DNA of 64,000 nt from Sunxiuqinia elliptica (GTDB taxonomy: Bacteria; Bacteroidota; Bacteroidia; Bacteroidales; Prolixibacteraceae), in contig NZ_FONW01000002.1 in the NCBI RefSeq assembly GCF_900113005.1, forward strand, positions 372,001 through 436,000, read 5' to 3'. The translations under genes were made by a program, and so were the position numbers. Shown here in pieces: positions 8,312 to 13,853 of this stretch. The notes beneath the pieces are model-generated. The model searched no databases, was not told where the DNA came from, and was given only the letters and a program-made list of their open reading frames with translations. The first letter of the stretch is position 1. Every line of letters begins with the position of its first letter.

Positions 8312-8580
8312 TCTCGCAGGCTCGCGAGAGCCTTTTCTGGATCGGAATTCGCTCTCGCAGCGCTGCGAGAGCATTTCTTGGATTGGGTTTGGACTCTCGC
8401 AGCACTGCGAGAGTCTTTTCTGGATCAGAATTTATTGTCGCAGCGCTGCGAGAGTCTTTTTTTAATCGGAATTAGCTCCCGCAATCCTGCGAGAGCATTT
8501 CTTGGACTGGCTTTGGGCTCTCGCAGCACGGTGAGAGCATTTTCTGGCTAGGGTTTTAGCTCTTACAATTCTGCTCAGCT
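8312..8580. repeat. Tandem array of about seven palindromes, 41-42 bp period
   Basis: Inverted repeats are centred at about 8320, 8361, 8403, 8444, 8485, 8527 and 8569. The second unit (8351-8372) is a perfect 22-bp palindrome of half-site GCTCTCGCAGC. The third (8392-8415) has an 11-bp stem GACTCTCGCAG with a two-base centre. Units 1 and 4-7 are degenerate, and the last is barely recognisable. Spacers of about 19-20 bases share a TTTCTGGAT-like core. Because the period is close to 14 codons, several frames stay open and give false 14-residue-repeat ORFs (containing LAALRE) on both strands. It lies in the 635-base gap between the spondin and methyltransferase genes. Function is unknown. Confidence 0.85.
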
Positions 8581-8773: not shown

Positions 8774-10054
8774 CTAATTGCGTTGGATCGTTACTTTTAT
8801 GATCTGATCCACATCAGGATACATGAAACCATCGTCGACCAGTCGGACATTACCTCCTTCAACAGTGTCATCAGCGGATTGGGCTCCGGGATACTCGTTG
8901 ACTTCGGTACCGGCGTCCCAAAGCATGAATAGCTTGGTGATATCTTTGTCAACAGGCGAGAAGGATAGCTTAATGCCATCGTCGTCAGGGGCAAAGAAGA
9001 TGTCGTTTGATGCCCCAAGCATAAAGGCCAGGCTAAGTTGTTTGCCCACTTGGCCTTCGAACGAGAACATGTATTTGTCACCGGGGAAAAGCGGACCAGC
9101 TTCGGTGCTTCCCTCGGGCATGTTGGCCACGCCAACGGTATAACCAGCATTGGTGAGTGACTCGGCCAATGTTGCTGGGTTTCCGGTTTCAGCCAAGGTT
9201 TCCAGTCCCATGCCATAGTCAGGCTGTCCGTCCATAAAGACCGGCATCTCGGTTTTGTCGTGCAATACCCAAAGAACAGGTGCTACGGGTGATACATAGC
9301 CCGTGTTCATCGCAAGGTAATCAGCCAAAGGCATGAAATTGCCATCTTCGGCTACGTGTTCCAAGCCATGTCCGTAATTCATCATTCCTTCGTGAAACAA
9401 GGCATAAGCTTGTGCATGAACGCCCCAAACAACGGGTGAAATACCGGTGGAGCTTTCGCTTAGGTTGTCAATGGTCACGGTAAACATATTGCTTTCGCCA
9501 TCGTAGTCCAACATCACTTTCAGGTTGGCACTCACGGCCGGGTAGGAATAACCATCATCGACTTCGGTGATGTTGCGAACGGTGCCGTTTTCGTCGGGAC
9601 CGGTGTTGGGGGCTGGTTGTTGTGGACCGGTGTTTGGGCCTACGCCAGGCTCTTCGTTAATCTCAGTTCCGGCATCCCACAGCTGAATCCAATCGGTGAT
9701 ATCGCCTGTTGTTGGCGTATCGCCATCGTAAAGTGGAATTCCTTCGCCTGATGGTCCGTAAAATAAGTCGTTGGATGCGCCATACATGGTGGCAAACGAT
9801 AAGCGGTGGTTTTTACCTGCATAAAATGAGAAGGTGTACGATTGGCCGGGATGAGCAGGTCCTGCTTCCGAAGTGCCTTCGGGCATGGTAGCTGCTCCCG
9901 ACTGAAAGAAGTCGTAGGGCATGGAGACATTTTCAACGGTTACGGTGTACATTCCCGTGGGCGGAGCGACTGCTCCAGGGTGGTCTTTGTCTAAACATTG
10001 GGTAAAAGTTGCTGCTAAGAACAACATAATCAAAGATAAGCGCATAACTTTCAT
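8774..10054 (-). CDS. Spondin-domain lipoprotein, one and a half Spondin_N units
   Basis: A 426-residue predicted lipoprotein; the signal peptide ends in a lipobox-like FTQC (Cys about 20). The body resembles the Spondin_N family: residues 35-190 hold one C-terminal-type half (MPEGTSEAGP, MYGASNDLF, LWDAGTEINEEPG) and residues 195-426 a full unit with an FHEGMMNYGHGLE stretch and a second MPEGSTEAGP...LGASNDIFF...LWDAGTEVNE series. It is unusually rich in methionine (21 of 426), many at the conserved motif positions. A triple TCACA-type repeat shared with msrAB and the response-regulator gene lies 50-76 bases upstream, suggesting co-regulation (inference). The molecular function of bacterial spondin proteins is not known to me. 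Confidence 0.85.
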   Translation of the reverse strand: MKVMRLSLIMLFLAATFTQCLDKDHPGAVAPPTGMYTVTVENVSMPYDFFQSGAATMPEGTSEAGPAHPGQSYTFSFYAGKNHRLSFATMYGASNDLFYGPSGEGIPLYDGDTPTTGDITDWIQLWDAGTEINEEPGVGPNTGPQQPAPNTGPDENGTVRNITEVDDGYSYPAVSANLKVMLDYDGESNMFTVTIDNLSESSTGISPVVWGVHAQAYALFHEGMMNYGHGLEHVAEDGNFMPLADYLAMNTGYVSPVAPVLWVLHDKTEMPVFMDGQPDYGMGLETLAETGNPATLAESLTNAGYTVGVANMPEGSTEAGPLFPGDKYMFSFEGQVGKQLSLAFMLGASNDIFFAPDDDGIKLSFSPVDKDITKLFMLWDAGTEVNEYPGAQSADDTVEGGNVRLVDDGFMYPDVDQIIKVTIQRN

Positions 10055-10084: not shown

Positions 10085-10130
10085 GCAAGTTCCGCTTAAA
10101 GTATCACAGGAGGGTCACAACAAATTCAAA
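10085..10130 (-). promoter_or_regulatory. Proposed response-regulator box C and -7 region of the spondin gene
   Basis: On the plus strand TCACA at 10104-10108, TCACA at 10115-10119 and TCAAA at 10126-10130 repeat with an exact 11-bp period. On the coding strand this reads TTTGA-N6-TGTGA-N6-TGTGA, then 11 bases, then GAACTTGC (10085-10092) where the -7 element would sit. The same layout is found upstream of msrAB and of the response-regulator gene. Confidence 0.7.
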
Positions 10131-10150
10131 CTTTTATAACGATTTTGTGG

Positions 10151-10211
10151 CGGAGGAGAAGGAATAGGACAGGCAAAGGCAAAGGCGGAGGCTAAGGTAC
10201 AGGTTGAGGAT
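10151..10211 (+). repeat. Purine-rich degenerate hexamer tract (right copy)
   Basis: A run of degenerate AAGGCN hexamers (AGGCAAAGGCAAAGGCGG and on) resembling the reverse complement of 8598-8642. Together they flank the spondin gene as imperfect inverted copies. The rest of the 379-base gap up to 10433 holds box C, an AT-rich stretch with TCTGAAAATCT (10255-10265) and the msrAB terminator; I see no gene in it. Confidence 0.45.
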
Positions 10212-10360
10212 CAGTTGTTCTAATTTAAGGTGTTACAAATGTTTGATAGTCTGATATCTGAAAATCTAATGATCTATTAATAGTGAGATGAAGGGGGTAT
10301 TAGCTGTGTTGTCGGTGTTGGGCTTTGGAATAACTATTTATTGACATTCAATTAGTCATG

Positions 10361-10387
10361 AAAAAAGCCAGGGAGTTGTCCCTGGCT
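10361..10387 (-). terminator. Rho-independent terminator of msrAB
   Basis: Nine-base-pair stem AGCCAGGGA (10366-10374) / TCCCTGGCT (10379-10387) with a four-base loop. On the minus strand it is followed by six T residues. It lies 46 bases after the msrAB stop codon. Confidence 0.85.
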
Positions 10388-10433
10388 TCGTTGCTTCTGG
10401 CCCGCAGGGGGCCTTATCGTTGCGCCTTCCTCT

Positions 10434-11375
10434 TTAAAACCGATTTACGCGCTGGTGGCAATAGGGCGTTCCTCCCTTTTTGACGTAATAGTCTTGGTGG
10501 TAGCCTTCAGCTTTCCAGAACGTGGCTGCCGGTGCTACCTGGGTGGTTACCTTGTAGCCTTTGCCTTTCAAGAGCTGGATCAGCCCCTCGACAATTTTTT
10601 TCTGCTCTTCGGTTCGGTAAAAAACGGCCGATCGGTATTGCTCGCCAATGTCTGGCCCTTGCCGGTTGAGCTGTGTCGGATCATGGATCTCAAAAAACAA
10701 GCGGGTCAGTTCTTCATACGAAGTTTCTGACGGCCTGAAAATAACGCGAACCGTTTCGGCGTGCCCGGTTTTGTGGTGGCTCACATCCTGGTACGAAGGA
10801 TTTTTCTTGCTACCTCCCATGTAGCCCGACTCCACTGAAATGACTCCTGGTGCTTGCTCTAGGTAATATTCTACGCCCCAAAAGCAGCCACCGGCAAAGT
10901 AGGCTGTATCGGTTGAGGCAGTCGTGCCCGTTTTGGCTGGAATAAACTCCAGCGAAATGGAATTTACACAGTGGCGCGTGTTCTTGGCTGTAAATCCTTC
11001 ATTGAGGAATACATGCCCCAGGTGGGCCCCACAGGCGTTGCAGGTAATTTCGGTCCGCATGCCATCGGCATCGGGCGTCCGTTTCACTGCACCCGGAATT
11101 TCATCGTCGAAGCTCGGCCAGCCACAGCCTGCATCAAACTTGTTAGTTGAATGGTACAACTCAGCTCCACAGCGTTTACATACGTAGGTTCCTTCCTCAA
11201 AAAACTGATCGTACTTCCCGGTAAAAGGGCGTTCGGTGCCTTTATGCACGATAACATGTTCTTCCTGCGGCGTTAGTGCGCGAAATTGGCTGTTCATTTT
11301 TTGTTGCTTATTGTTTTGAGCGCAGCCAGCCAGTGTCCAGCTACCCATCAGAATAATAAAGATTGTCCGTTTCAT
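10434..11375 (-). CDS. msrAB: Fused peptide methionine sulfoxide reductase MsrB-MsrA, predicted lipoprotein
   Basis: Reduces both R- and S-methionine sulfoxide in proteins, here probably in the periplasm because the 313-residue product starts with a lipoprotein signal (LAGC, C18). The MsrB domain comes first: zinc cysteines in CKRC (C66, C69) and CNAC (C112, C115) and the catalytic RHCVNS (C136). The MsrA domain follows with GGCFWG (C164). The B-then-A order differs from the A-then-B order of Neisseria PilB. The start is ATG 11375, which has a strong AAAGGAGA Shine-Dalgarno, unusual in this phylum; an ATG eight codons upstream is less likely. It is downstream of the histidine kinase gene but has its own box and promoter-like element, so it may be both co-transcribed and independently induced. 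Confidence 0.95.
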   Translation of the reverse strand: MKRTIFIILMGSWTLAGCAQNNKQQKMNSQFRALTPQEEHVIVHKGTERPFTGKYDQFFEEGTYVCKRCGAELYHSTNKFDAGCGWPSFDDEIPGAVKRTPDADGMRTEITCNACGAHLGHVFLNEGFTAKNTRHCVNSISLEFIPAKTGTTASTDTAYFAGGCFWGVEYYLEQAPGVISVESGYMGGSKKNPSYQDVSHHKTGHAETVRVIFRPSETSYEELTRLFFEIHDPTQLNRQGPDIGEQYRSAVFYRTEEQKKIVEGLIQLLKGKGYKVTTQVAPAATFWKAEGYHQDYYVKKGGTPYCHQRVNRF

Positions 11376-11460
11376 CACTTGTCTCCTTTCTACTAGCATT
11401 AAATAAGCTTTCTGGTCTTTTTTTCGCTTCGGTTTGTTGCGGCGACCAATTACTCTGTAA

Positions 11461-11506
11461 CAAAGTTGGGAGCATTAAGTCACAGGAACATCACAAAGCC
11501 TTCAAA
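11461..11506 (-). promoter_or_regulatory. Proposed response-regulator box B and -7 region of msrAB
   Basis: On the plus strand TCACA at 11480-11484, TCACA at 11491-11495 and TCAAA at 11502-11506 repeat with an exact 11-bp period. On the coding strand CAACTTTG (11461-11468) sits 11 bases downstream and matches seven of eight -7 positions. A further block, CTTTTATAACGATT, is shared with box C. The block ends at the histidine kinase stop codon (11519-11521). Confidence 0.75.
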
Positions 11507-11518
11507 CTTTTATAACGA

Positions 11519-12997
11519 TTAAGCTCTGTTGGCAATGGGTAAATCAAAGCTGAAGGTGGTTCCTTTTCCCAACTGGCTATACACACGGATGGAAGATTGG
11601 TGCAGTTCGATGATTTTCTTCACGATGGCCAGCCCCAAGCCTGTGCTTTGCCGGTCTTCGCGCCCTTTGTAGTAACGTTGAAAGACGTGTTCCAAATCTT
11701 CCTGCTTAATTCCCTGTCCTGAGTCAGCGACGCGCACCTCAACGGTTTGGGGATTTTTGGTATCAATTTCAATATTGATGGTGTCGCCTTCTCGGCAATA
11801 TTTTACGGCATTGTCGATGAGGTTTTGCAAAACCCGGTCAATCATCGAAATGTCGGCTTCCACCAAAGGCACTTCTTTGGCAATGACGGTATTAACGCTG
11901 ATGCCTTTCTTTTGAGAGATGATCCGGTATTTGTTGGCAATATCGTAAACGAGCTCAGCAATGGAGAAAGGCTCCGGCTGCGGTTTTACCTGGTGGGCTT
12001 CCAATTTCGACAATTCAAATAAATCTTCAACTAACTTTTTAAGTCGCCCACAACTTTTGTAAATCACCTCCAGGTATTTCTCCTGTTCCTGGGGCTGAAT
12101 GGTCTCTTTTTTCAGCAGCAGGGTTTCAGCATATCCCTGGATCGAAGCTACCGGCGTCCGCAAGTCGTGGGATACATTACTGATCAGTTCGCGCCGTAAG
12201 TTATCCACCCCTTTTAGTTCCTGAATGTTTTGCTCAATGGTGTCCGCCATTTCGTTAAAAACCAGGCCAATTCGGTCCAGTTCGCCTTCGTTCTTTACCT
12301 CAATTCGCTTGCTTAGGTTGCCTTCCCGAAAGGTGCTGATTCCCTCAATGATGGGGTTCAGCTTGCGGGTGATCATCCAAATGGCCCACAATCCTACCAA
12401 TGCCGAAATAATCAGGATGGTGATCACCGATCGAATAGACAGGCCGAGGATGTAACTTCCCAAAACGGCTTGGGATGCCGAAACATATTCCTGGCTGGCT
12501 AAAACAATGTAGATGTAGCCGGTGAGTTGGTCGCCATTGACGACCCGCGCTGCAGAAAAGGTTTTGTATTCGCCGGGATTTCGGGGATCATCGCCGTAAA
12601 TGATGCTGTGCTCGGGATCTGCCAAAAAGCTTTTCACCGGAGTCAGATTGACGTGTTCCAGTTGCACAACTTTATCGGGAGCCACATATTGCAGGATTTT
12701 TCCCTCGGGATTGAGCAGGTAAACTTCCACAATGGGGTTGATCACCATCATGGAGTGCATCAAATCTTTGACTCCTTCTTCGCTGATAATACCGTCCTTT
12801 ATAAACGGGTTGATCATGGCAATGGTGTTTTGCGCCAGCTCGCTGTTGAGGCGCTGGTTAACCTCAACGGAATAGCTGCGGGCTGACTCCACCGAAATGT
12901 AAAGGACGATGGCCGTAAACAGGAAAAGCACCAACAAAAAGATGGCGGAAACCTGCATGTACAGGCGATTGAATATTTTTGGTCTGGCAATTTGCAT
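11519..12997 (-). CDS. Membrane sensor histidine kinase
   Basis: A 492-residue inner-membrane sensor kinase. The first transmembrane helix spans about residues 15-35. A periplasmic sensing region of about 145 residues follows, with a PAS/Cache-like texture (VEVYLLNPEGKILQY, YIYIVLASQ). The second helix is at about 185-208, then HAMP, the HisKA phosphoacceptor in NVSHDLRTP (H277), and an HATPase domain with the N box NLIDNAVKYC, ADSGQGI and GLGLAIV. It lies 17 bases downstream of its response-regulator gene. From its neighbours I infer that it senses envelope or oxidative stress and controls msrAB and the spondin lipoprotein; the actual ligand is unknown. Confidence 0.92.
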   Translation of the reverse strand: MQIARPKIFNRLYMQVSAIFLLVLFLFTAIVLYISVESARSYSVEVNQRLNSELAQNTIAMINPFIKDGIISEEGVKDLMHSMMVINPIVEVYLLNPEGKILQYVAPDKVVQLEHVNLTPVKSFLADPEHSIIYGDDPRNPGEYKTFSAARVVNGDQLTGYIYIVLASQEYVSASQAVLGSYILGLSIRSVITILIISALVGLWAIWMITRKLNPIIEGISTFREGNLSKRIEVKNEGELDRIGLVFNEMADTIEQNIQELKGVDNLRRELISNVSHDLRTPVASIQGYAETLLLKKETIQPQEQEKYLEVIYKSCGRLKKLVEDLFELSKLEAHQVKPQPEPFSIAELVYDIANKYRIISQKKGISVNTVIAKEVPLVEADISMIDRVLQNLIDNAVKYCREGDTINIEIDTKNPQTVEVRVADSGQGIKQEDLEHVFQRYYKGREDRQSTGLGLAIVKKIIELHQSSIRVYSQLGKGTTFSFDLPIANRA

Positions 12998-13014
12998 CGG
13001 TTAAATTTTTAAGC

Positions 13015-13710
13015 TCAGGATTCCCTGAATTTATAGCCCACGCCCCAGGTGGTTAAAATGTATTCCGGCTTACTCATGTCCTTTTCCACCTTGGAACGTA
13101 GCCGGTTAATATGTGAGTTAACAGTGTGTTCAAAGCCCTCAAACTCGTATCCCCAAACCTGGTTGAGCAGCTGCATGCGGGAGTAGGTTTTCCCGGGATT
13201 TGAAGCGAGGTGAACCAAGAGGTCAAATTCTTTCGGTGATAGTTCAATCCGTTCGCCTGCAATTTCCACAATTCGCATTCCAACGTTGATGTACAGTTGG
13301 TCGTAGCGCAACTCCAATTCCTCTTGGTCTTTTGCAGCGGTGTGTTGCTCCGTTCGGCGTAAAACTGCTTTAATACGGGCCAGTAACTCGCGAATACCAA
13401 ATGGTTTGGAAATGTAGTCGTCAGCACCAATCTCTAGTCCAAGCACCTTGTCAATTTCTTCTGATTTGGAGGTAATCATCAACACAGGGGTGTTGTTCTT
13501 CTCCATGCGAAGACGTTTGCACACCTCAAAGCCATCCAGCAAGGGTAGGCGAATGTCGAGCAAGATAAACCGGTAATGGTTGTTTAAGGCTTTCATCAGT
13601 CCGTCCTGACCATCGTAGGCTTTGTCCACTTCCAGGGCCATATCAGCTAAATGAATCGCAATCAGTTCCGAAATATCTTTATCATCCTCTATAATTAAAG
13701 CTTTTTCCAT
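13015..13710 (-). CDS. OmpR/PhoB-family response regulator
   Basis: A 231-residue transcription factor: receiver domain (acidic pair E8-D10, phosphoacceptor D52 in LLDIRLP, MITSKS, and Lys in ISKPFG), followed by a winged-helix Trans_reg_C DNA-binding domain (ELSPKEFDLL, HTVNSHINRLRSKVE, TTWGVGYKF). The start is ATG 13710 (MEKALIIED); the upstream in-frame start at 13746 would add a non-homologous tail and overlap the promoter. It heads a minus-strand operon with the kinase. Three 11-bp-spaced direct repeats lie just upstream, which is the expected target geometry for this family, so autoregulation is likely (inference). Confidence 0.93.
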   Translation of the reverse strand: MEKALIIEDDKDISELIAIHLADMALEVDKAYDGQDGLMKALNNHYRFILLDIRLPLLDGFEVCKRLRMEKNNTPVLMITSKSEEIDKVLGLEIGADDYISKPFGIRELLARIKAVLRRTEQHTAAKDQEELELRYDQLYINVGMRIVEIAGERIELSPKEFDLLVHLASNPGKTYSRMQLLNQVWGYEFEGFEHTVNSHINRLRSKVEKDMSKPEYILTTWGVGYKFRES

Positions 13711-13734
13711 GAGTGTTTTTCTATGAAAACATTC

Positions 13735-13780
13735 GAAAGGTAGCATGTGTTTATCACAGAAGTATCACAAAGTCATTAAA
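13735..13780 (-). promoter_or_regulatory. Proposed autoregulatory box A and -7 region of the response-regulator operon
   Basis: On the plus strand TCACA at 13754-13758, TCACA at 13765-13769 and TTAAA at 13776-13780 repeat with an exact 11-bp period. On the coding strand TACCTTTC (13735-13742), a seven-of-eight match to TAnnTTTG, sits 11 bases downstream, the same spacing as in boxes B and C. Confidence 0.75.
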
Positions 13781-13853
13781 TTAGGTTCACAGTGCTTGTG
13801 GATAAGTTGGTTGTTGTGCTGAAAGGCCCAAGTGGTGGATTGTTTCGGGGGTA

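Follow-up and report, generated by a model that had tools for sequence, protein, structure and literature searches.

The locus and its repeats

We analyzed 64,000 nucleotides of Sunxiuqinia elliptica DNA (the whole stretch, hereafter the window) for a candidate regulon: triple direct repeats with an 11-bp period that lie upstream of genes for an OmpR/PhoB-family response regulator (RR), a methionine sulfoxide reductase and a spondin-domain protein. The original prediction, made from the letters alone, had read the repeats as binding sites of this RR. The genes, boxes and promoter-like octamers of the locus are as follows:

13015..13710, minus strand: OmpR/PhoB-family RR, 231 aa from MEKALIIEDD (Pfam Response_reg and Trans_reg_C)
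13754..13780, minus strand: RR boxes 1-3, TTTAA-N6-TGTGA-N6-TGTGA (pattern match; promoters of RR orthologues retain boxes 2 and 3)
13787..13791, minus strand: extra TGTGA that continues the 11-bp register on the upstream side of the RR triple (3-mismatch match at 13765-13791)
13735..13742, minus strand: RR promoter -7-like octamer TACCTTTC, 11 bp after box 3 (sequence, alignment)
11519..12997, minus strand: sensor histidine kinase (HK), 492 aa (HAMP, HisKA, HATPase_c)
10434..11375, minus strand: fused MsrB/MsrA methionine sulfoxide reductase (MsrAB) with a lipoprotein-like N-terminus (Pfam PMSR and SelR; NCBIfam NF004042)
11480..11506, minus strand: msrAB boxes 1-3, TTTGA-N6-TGTGA-N6-TGTGA (pattern match)
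11461..11468, minus strand: msrAB promoter -7-like octamer CAACTTTG, 11 bp after box 3 (sequence, alignment)
8774..10054, minus strand: spondin-domain protein, 426 aa, with a lipoprotein-like N-terminus (NCBIfam NF038123)
10104..10130, minus strand: spondin-gene boxes 1-3, TTTGA-N6-TGTGA-N6-TGTGA (pattern match)
10085..10092, minus strand: spondin promoter -7-like octamer GAACTTGC, 11 bp after box 3 (sequence, alignment)

The three triples that had been seen by eye at 10104-10130, 11480-11506 and 13754-13780 are exact matches to TTTRA-N6-TGTGA-N6-TGTGA on the minus strand. None had been noticed elsewhere, and the exact motif indeed has no other match in the window or in the genome (26 contigs, 5,094,324 bases): the genome search that had been named as a check returned these three sites only, all within 3.7 kb, so the motif is not common at unrelated places. 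The reversed motif, used as a control, had 0 exact matches in the whole genome, and the window composition (42.7% GC) predicts 0.04 exact matches. Relaxed searches added little: up to 3 mismatches gave 9 matches in the window versus 6.06 expected, and up to 2 mismatches gave 30 matches in the genome versus 25 for the control, no clear excess past the three sites. The octamers were found as described, 11 bp past box 3 at all three sites and with A2, C4, T5 and T6 in common.

The RR has both domains of its proposed family, a receiver (Response_reg, 2.3e-26) and a winged-helix domain (Trans_reg_C, 6e-28). Its start is most likely 13710 rather than 13746, the start of the longer open reading frame (ORF), because orthologues start there; the -7 element would therefore lie upstream of the RR gene. 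Scores of MsrAB (NF004042, 447.7 bits, cut-off 330) and of the spondin protein (NF038123, 218.2 bits, cut-off 40) were well above their cut-offs. Their lipoprotein-like N-termini were judged by eye, as was the MsrAB start at MKRTIF. The extracytoplasmic region of the kinase has no Pfam domain, and its sensor region has no Protein Data Bank (PDB) relative with E < 0.1. Met84, within this sensor region, is invariant in 45 of 45 aligned rows (40 distinct), which makes it at most a candidate redox residue. The closest named relatives are Mangrovibacterium, Draconibacterium and a Prolixibacteraceae metagenome-assembled genome.

The three sites are not equally informative. The msrAB (11501-11520) and spondin (10125-10144) sites have 20 identical bp in common, reaching upstream of box 1; thus these two sites are not independent and are probably related by duplication. 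Because the msr sites of four aligned relatives lack the 20-bp stretch, the msrAB promoter here may be a copy of the spondin promoter.

Conservation of the boxes and the genes they precede

We fetched RR orthologues together with their neighbourhoods for comparison. The exact triple occurs in 5 of 61 genomes, including S. elliptica itself, and it lies at the RR locus in 2 of the other 4. Exact-pattern matches inside an ORF (G057) and before no gene on the target list (G033) were set aside. We then built a gap-free 62-column alignment of 26 sites, one per gene, from upstream of 12 RR genes, 5 msr genes and 9 genes for lipoproteins. These sites were chosen on the two core boxes with at most 2 mismatches; the -7 element was outside the picking rule, though the downstream sequence was visible during picking. 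Box 3 has GTGA in 26 of 26 sites, followed by T and A in 25 of 26 each. Box 2 retains GTGA in 25 of 26 (G 26, T 26, G 25, A 26). In box 1 (TTTxA), the three T are found in 17, 19 and 23 sites and the A in all 26. The -7 element at +11 scores A 25, T 25, T 26, T 22 and G 12 of 26. Upstream of the RR, TGTGA-N6-TGTGA is present with at most 1 mismatch in 12 of the 12 promoters looked at, and three loci with a weak box 1 at this position (L036, L075, L077) retain boxes 2 and 3. The triple proposed as a unit is thus exact in S. elliptica, but the conserved core is boxes 2 and 3, with a weaker box 1.

A second set was chosen on the boxes only, in genomes of the class: 26 sites at 26 RR loci, with 1 mismatch allowed and some sites overlapping. 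A site lies directly upstream of the RR at 14 of the 26 loci. The -7 motif peaks in this set at exactly +11, with 3.54 of 5 positions matched (2.23 at the next best offset). No clear signal for a third box was seen at -11 of the class RR loci (1.46 of 4, matched at -19), and a third box is therefore not claimed outside the family. Bacteroidota sigma-A promoters have TTTG at -33 and TAnnTTTG at -7. The sites have the Bacteroidota-type -7 element at a fixed distance from the boxes; a -33 TTTG, about 19-21 bp upstream of -7, was not seen, and box 2 and the spacer sit there (judged by eye, no scan run). In two relatives, three GTGA boxes stand in an 11-bp row, before MsrAB, 363 bp off, in G075 and before a DUF7482 lipoprotein gene in G061 (L181 560-610 and L182, respectively).

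The 26 sites were turned into a sequence-only profile (R1). In the S. elliptica genome, among the best 150 of 2472 candidates, the window sites score 46.2, 45.0 and 37.5 bits and the next row 15.2; at E<=10 there are 13 rows, ten of them at or below 15.2 bits. The best of these ten (C10:1143962, L131) was considered as a further member and rejected: it falls within a 1078-aa ORF. Over the 61 genomes, R1 returned 27 rows at E<1e-3, 19 of them training sites. The 8 new sites precede spondin genes (G014, G004, G005), the gene of an RskA_C lipoprotein beside a kinase (G031), an RR gene (G049), an MsrB gene (G002) and a redoxin-DsbD pair (G014), and one lies inside an ORF (G056). At the last of the target loci (G014, L123 2130-4878) the site stands before redoxin and then DsbD, which could plausibly feed electrons to envelope Msr.

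The search was extended to 140 genomes of the family (E<=1e-3, best 38 candidates per genome, so that site counts are lower bounds). It gave at least 86 sites, 24 from training and 62 new. Directly upstream of an RR orthologue are 22 of the 62, and 37 of the other 40 precede genes of a short list: 22 spondin genes (including one fragment and one split gene), 4 DUF7482, 4 RskA_C, 3 rhodanese lipoproteins, 3 Msr (2 MsrAB and 1 MsrB) and 1 redoxin with DsbD. Target names come from Pfam or NCBIfam for representatives and from phmmer similarity to these for the rest. Gene classes of the training set account for 33 of the 40; rhodanese and redoxin with DsbD are new classes. The last three sites lie before a kinase fragment (G107) or have no sensible target (G140, G085). 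Fifteen of the 40 non-RR sites are on another contig than the RR, which in drafts is no proof of distance, or at least 59 kb from it (10 spondin, 3 rhodanese, 1 redoxin with DsbD, 1 MsrB); seven of these share the RR contig at distances of 59 kb to 1.6 Mb, the distance in G107 being measured from its decayed locus.

The presence of a site follows the presence of the RR, which was scored at E<=1e-75 in the family and at E<=1e-62 in a class sample of 395 genomes. Every family genome with the RR has a site (33/33, or 22/22 without the 11 training genomes), and a site was found in 5 of the 107 genomes without it (G085, G104, G107, G111, G140; Fisher 2e-20, training genomes left out). G104 and G111 are 70-75% complete, and the best RR matches in the five are 35-44% identical. 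In the class sample, 10 of 26 RR genomes have a site versus 0 of 369 others (E<=1e-4, best 13 candidates per genome; Fisher 4e-12, own genome left out). Besides those of S. elliptica, the class sites number 10 in 9 genomes: G373 and G468:C15 are RR promoters; those of G490 and G238 stand at RR loci, before a spondin and a DUF7482 gene, respectively; the G434 site is beside the RR and points away from it; the G174 site follows the kinase; and four are separate from the RR (G248, G403, G258 at 4 kb, and G468:C35), two of which, G248 and G258, precede DM13 proteins. The boxes-only class sites are also found at genes of the spondin (L237, L240), DUF7482 (L231), RskA_C (L243) and DM13 (L248) types. 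No RR relatives were found in viral contigs.

Decay of the locus was seen in two relatives. An internal deletion in G005 has fused RR and kinase into one frame (L074 5137-5793) and the RR-type promoter is intact; its spondin gene is broken into two frames (L126 2693-3948) and its msr site has drifted. In G107 no close RR was found, and only fragments of the kinase and spondin genes remain behind the sites (L167 2291-2578; L168 2191-2529). Joint decay of regulator and target fits one pathway; assembly errors are also possible.

A predicted regulon, its outputs and its signal

We consider it probable that the RR encoded at 13015-13710 binds at the three sites; it would autoregulate and also activate envelope lipoprotein and redox-repair genes. 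The sites, their spacing, their conservation, their co-occurrence with the RR and their gene content are all observed in the genomes compared. Two TGTGA half-sites 11 bp apart, together with the weaker upstream ones, would hold a head-to-tail dimer or a longer oligomer of the RR, which we infer to bind in its phosphorylated form. The RR would take the place of the -33 element, a fixed 11 bp upstream of the Bacteroidota-type -7 element, and activate transcription. PhoB activates at -35, and the fixed 11-bp gap to -7, with the boxes at the -33 place, likewise suggests activation rather than repression. The RR would control its own RR-HK operon and induce an envelope lipoprotein, which is the spondin protein in S. 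elliptica and of the DUF7482, RskA_C or DM13 type in relatives. In part of the genomes it would also induce redox-repair genes: msrAB in S. elliptica, and MsrB, a rhodanese lipoprotein or redoxin with DsbD elsewhere. Three repeats seen by eye thereby lead to the prediction of a regulon whose operator, regulator and genes are specified and which is met again in many other genomes. It would offer a handle on the Bacteroidota response to envelope protein damage and on the roles of spondin, DUF7482, RskA_C and DM13 lipoproteins in bacteria.

Several results weigh against this reading. At 1 mismatch, 12 of the 26 class RR loci have no box pair directly upstream, and 16 of the 26 class RR genomes have no site at E<=1e-4 (best 13 candidates per genome). 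Part of the co-occurrence is expected from the outset, one of the sites being the promoter of the RR. Some sites have no sensible target (G140 and G085 in the family, G056 in the 61-genome set, G468:C35 in the class). Finally, MsrAB does not follow the RR across genomes: a match at E<=1e-60 is present in 4 of 9 genomes with the RR and in 17 of the 52 without it (Fisher 0.71), and the argument for a repair role thus comes from a minority of the sites and from gene content. MsrAB was accordingly rejected as a constant partner of the RR. The proposed regulon is otherwise supported by the sites that relatives retain upstream of RR, msr and lipoprotein genes, some of them at a great distance from the RR locus. 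Among the 86 family sites, training sites included, 28 stand before spondin genes and 8 before Msr genes: the constant output is the lipoprotein and Msr is accessory.

The nature of the signal is the part of which we are least sure. The genes together suggest that the system answers oxidative damage to exported proteins, with oxidative or hypohalous stress as a possible signal. It is a serious possibility, if still a somewhat doubtful one, that the same regulator and regulon respond to something else, such as copper, another metal or general envelope stress, with msrAB as an accessory. Most new non-RR sites precede lipoproteins without an established function, which, with the failure of MsrAB to follow the RR, would suit such a signal. 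Copper and HOCl converge on the E. coli msrP promoter via CusR and HprR boxes (PMC9302797). The Msr, redoxin-DsbD and rhodanese targets point instead to sulfur and thiol redox chemistry.

The lipoproteins are moderately rich in methionine. After residue 25, the mean content is 3.84% in spondin proteins (26 of 27, one fragment left out), 3.48% in DUF7482 (6) and 4.05% in RskA_C (5) proteins, against 2.08% (sd 1.07) for the 42 window ORFs of at least 200 aa, a reference made of window ORFs and not of matched exported proteins or of spondin proteins from outside the regulon. The window spondin protein (4.49% after residue 25) ranks second among these 42 ORFs. Only two internal Met positions are retained in 26 of 26 aligned spondin proteins. 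BcrX/MrpX have been proposed to act as oxidant sinks recycled by Msr (PMC8315932); the moderate enrichment here fits this idea but does not show it. A bolder proposal, which we regard as speculative and rather improbable, is a Bacteroidia-wide envelope response to methionine oxidation: the unrecognised sensor domain of the kinase would detect oxidation by way of Met84, and the RR would induce Met-rich lipoproteins (spondin, DUF7482, RskA_C, and in other families the DM13 electron-transfer domain) as renewable oxidant sinks, recharged by lipoprotein MsrAB and redoxin/DsbD where these are present and co-regulated. If true, it would give these bacterial lipoproteins a function.

The regulator and its known counterparts

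The nearest PDB relatives of the RR DNA-binding domain are of the WalR/YycF, MtrA and SaeR types. WalR binds the repeat TGTWAH-N5-TGTWAH, and the WalR and SaeR regulons are Gram-positive. WalR/SaeR-type repeats have the same period and TGTxA core as the boxes here. The RR is not an equivalog of the regulators tried: YycF (217 bits, cut-off 340), PhoB (NF053854, 192.4 bits, cut-off 270; TIGR02154, 191.3 bits, cut-off 296.2) and HprR (NF008567, 151.7 bits, cut-off 353) were all rejected. The Pho box, whose core is GTCA, was rejected as well: the core here is GTGA, with G at the position in question in 25 of 26 sites (box 2) and 26 of 26 (box 3).

These results bear on whether PhoB or another OmpR-family RR binds the sites, with the local RR merely a target, which we find unlikely. 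The period resembles that of the Pho box, and a second OmpR-family RR of S. elliptica has TGTGAC-N5-TGTGAC just after its gene (L007, C10:859249). Yet the sites track the local RR across the 140 and 395 genomes, none of the targets was recognised as a phosphate gene, and the local RR stays below the PhoB cut-off. It is very hard to credit that the TGTGA elements are Crp/Fnr-type half-sites: TGTGA is the Crp half-site and in two class genomes (L215, L221) the ORF downstream of the site resembles a Crp protein by eye, but Crp sites are inverted, and TGTGA-N6-TCACA occurs at 0 of the 26 sites. Equally implausible is a local duplication without regulatory function, which would explain the 20 bp common to two sites and the clustering of all exact sites but not the retention of the boxes across genera or the sites that genes for spondin proteins, MsrB and redoxin-DsbD carry outside the RR locus.

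Binding by the local RR would follow a known architecture. Regulators of the OmpR/PhoB family occupy direct repeats in the form of tandem dimers, and binding tightens with three or four repeats, as described in a study on Mycobacterium tuberculosis PhoP, whose 7-bp motifs need a 4-bp spacer and thus repeat every 11 bp (PMC4832192). The 11-bp tandem layout, which had been recognised as typical of this family, agrees with these repeats. The PhoP site, TCACAGC-N4-TCACAGC as given there, reads GCTGTGA-N4-GCTGTGA on the other strand and comes near to CTGTGA-N5-CTGTGA here (PMC4832192). The regulators and targets differ from those of both M. tuberculosis PhoP and E. coli PhoB, and the sites here have a Bacteroidota-type -7 element. 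By our own reading, with no printed alignment, the base-contacting PhoP residues Asn212, Glu215, Tyr217 and Tyr220 seem not to be retained in the RR.

Three systems resemble the proposed one in what they control. E. coli HprSR-msrPQ likewise places extracytoplasmic methionine sulfoxide repair under an OmpR-family two-component system; its box, CATTACAAAATTGTAATG, and its enzyme, MsrPQ, are both unlike those here (PMC9302797). In Fusobacterium nucleatum, ModRS-msrAB-trx-ccdA also puts two-component genes beside fused msrAB; thiol electrons would be supplied by ccdA/trx there, and one relative here has a site before redoxin and DsbD (PMC9239216). F. nucleatum belongs to another phylum, the portion of the ModRS description at hand gives no motif, and the likeness seen is one of gene content (PMC9239216). 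Azospira MrpX and Brucella BcrSXQP are similar in that an exported methionine-rich protein is co-regulated with an envelope Msr, but they use extracytoplasmic function (ECF) sigma control and an MXKDX-repeat peptide, unlike the two-component system and moderately Met-enriched domain lipoproteins here (PMC8315932). We found no literature report of this regulon or of a bacterial spondin protein under two-component control, in a search that mostly did not cover subscription papers and preprints. The architecture is known; what appears to be new is this regulon, with its unrecognised sensor domain and its unusual lipoprotein output.

Two further repeats were observed. The one next to the second RR (L007 1480-1560, G000:C10:859249) reads TTGTGACAAAACTGTGACAACTT, a similar 11-bp direct repeat directly after a different HK/OmpR-type RR pair; it precedes a 126-aa exported-looking protein and possibly belongs to a parallel system of that second regulator. 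About 230 bp past the 3' end of the spondin gene, at 8312-8547 of the window, lie tandem units of about 41 bp (5.7 copies) with palindromes of the CTCGCAGC.GCTGCGAG type.

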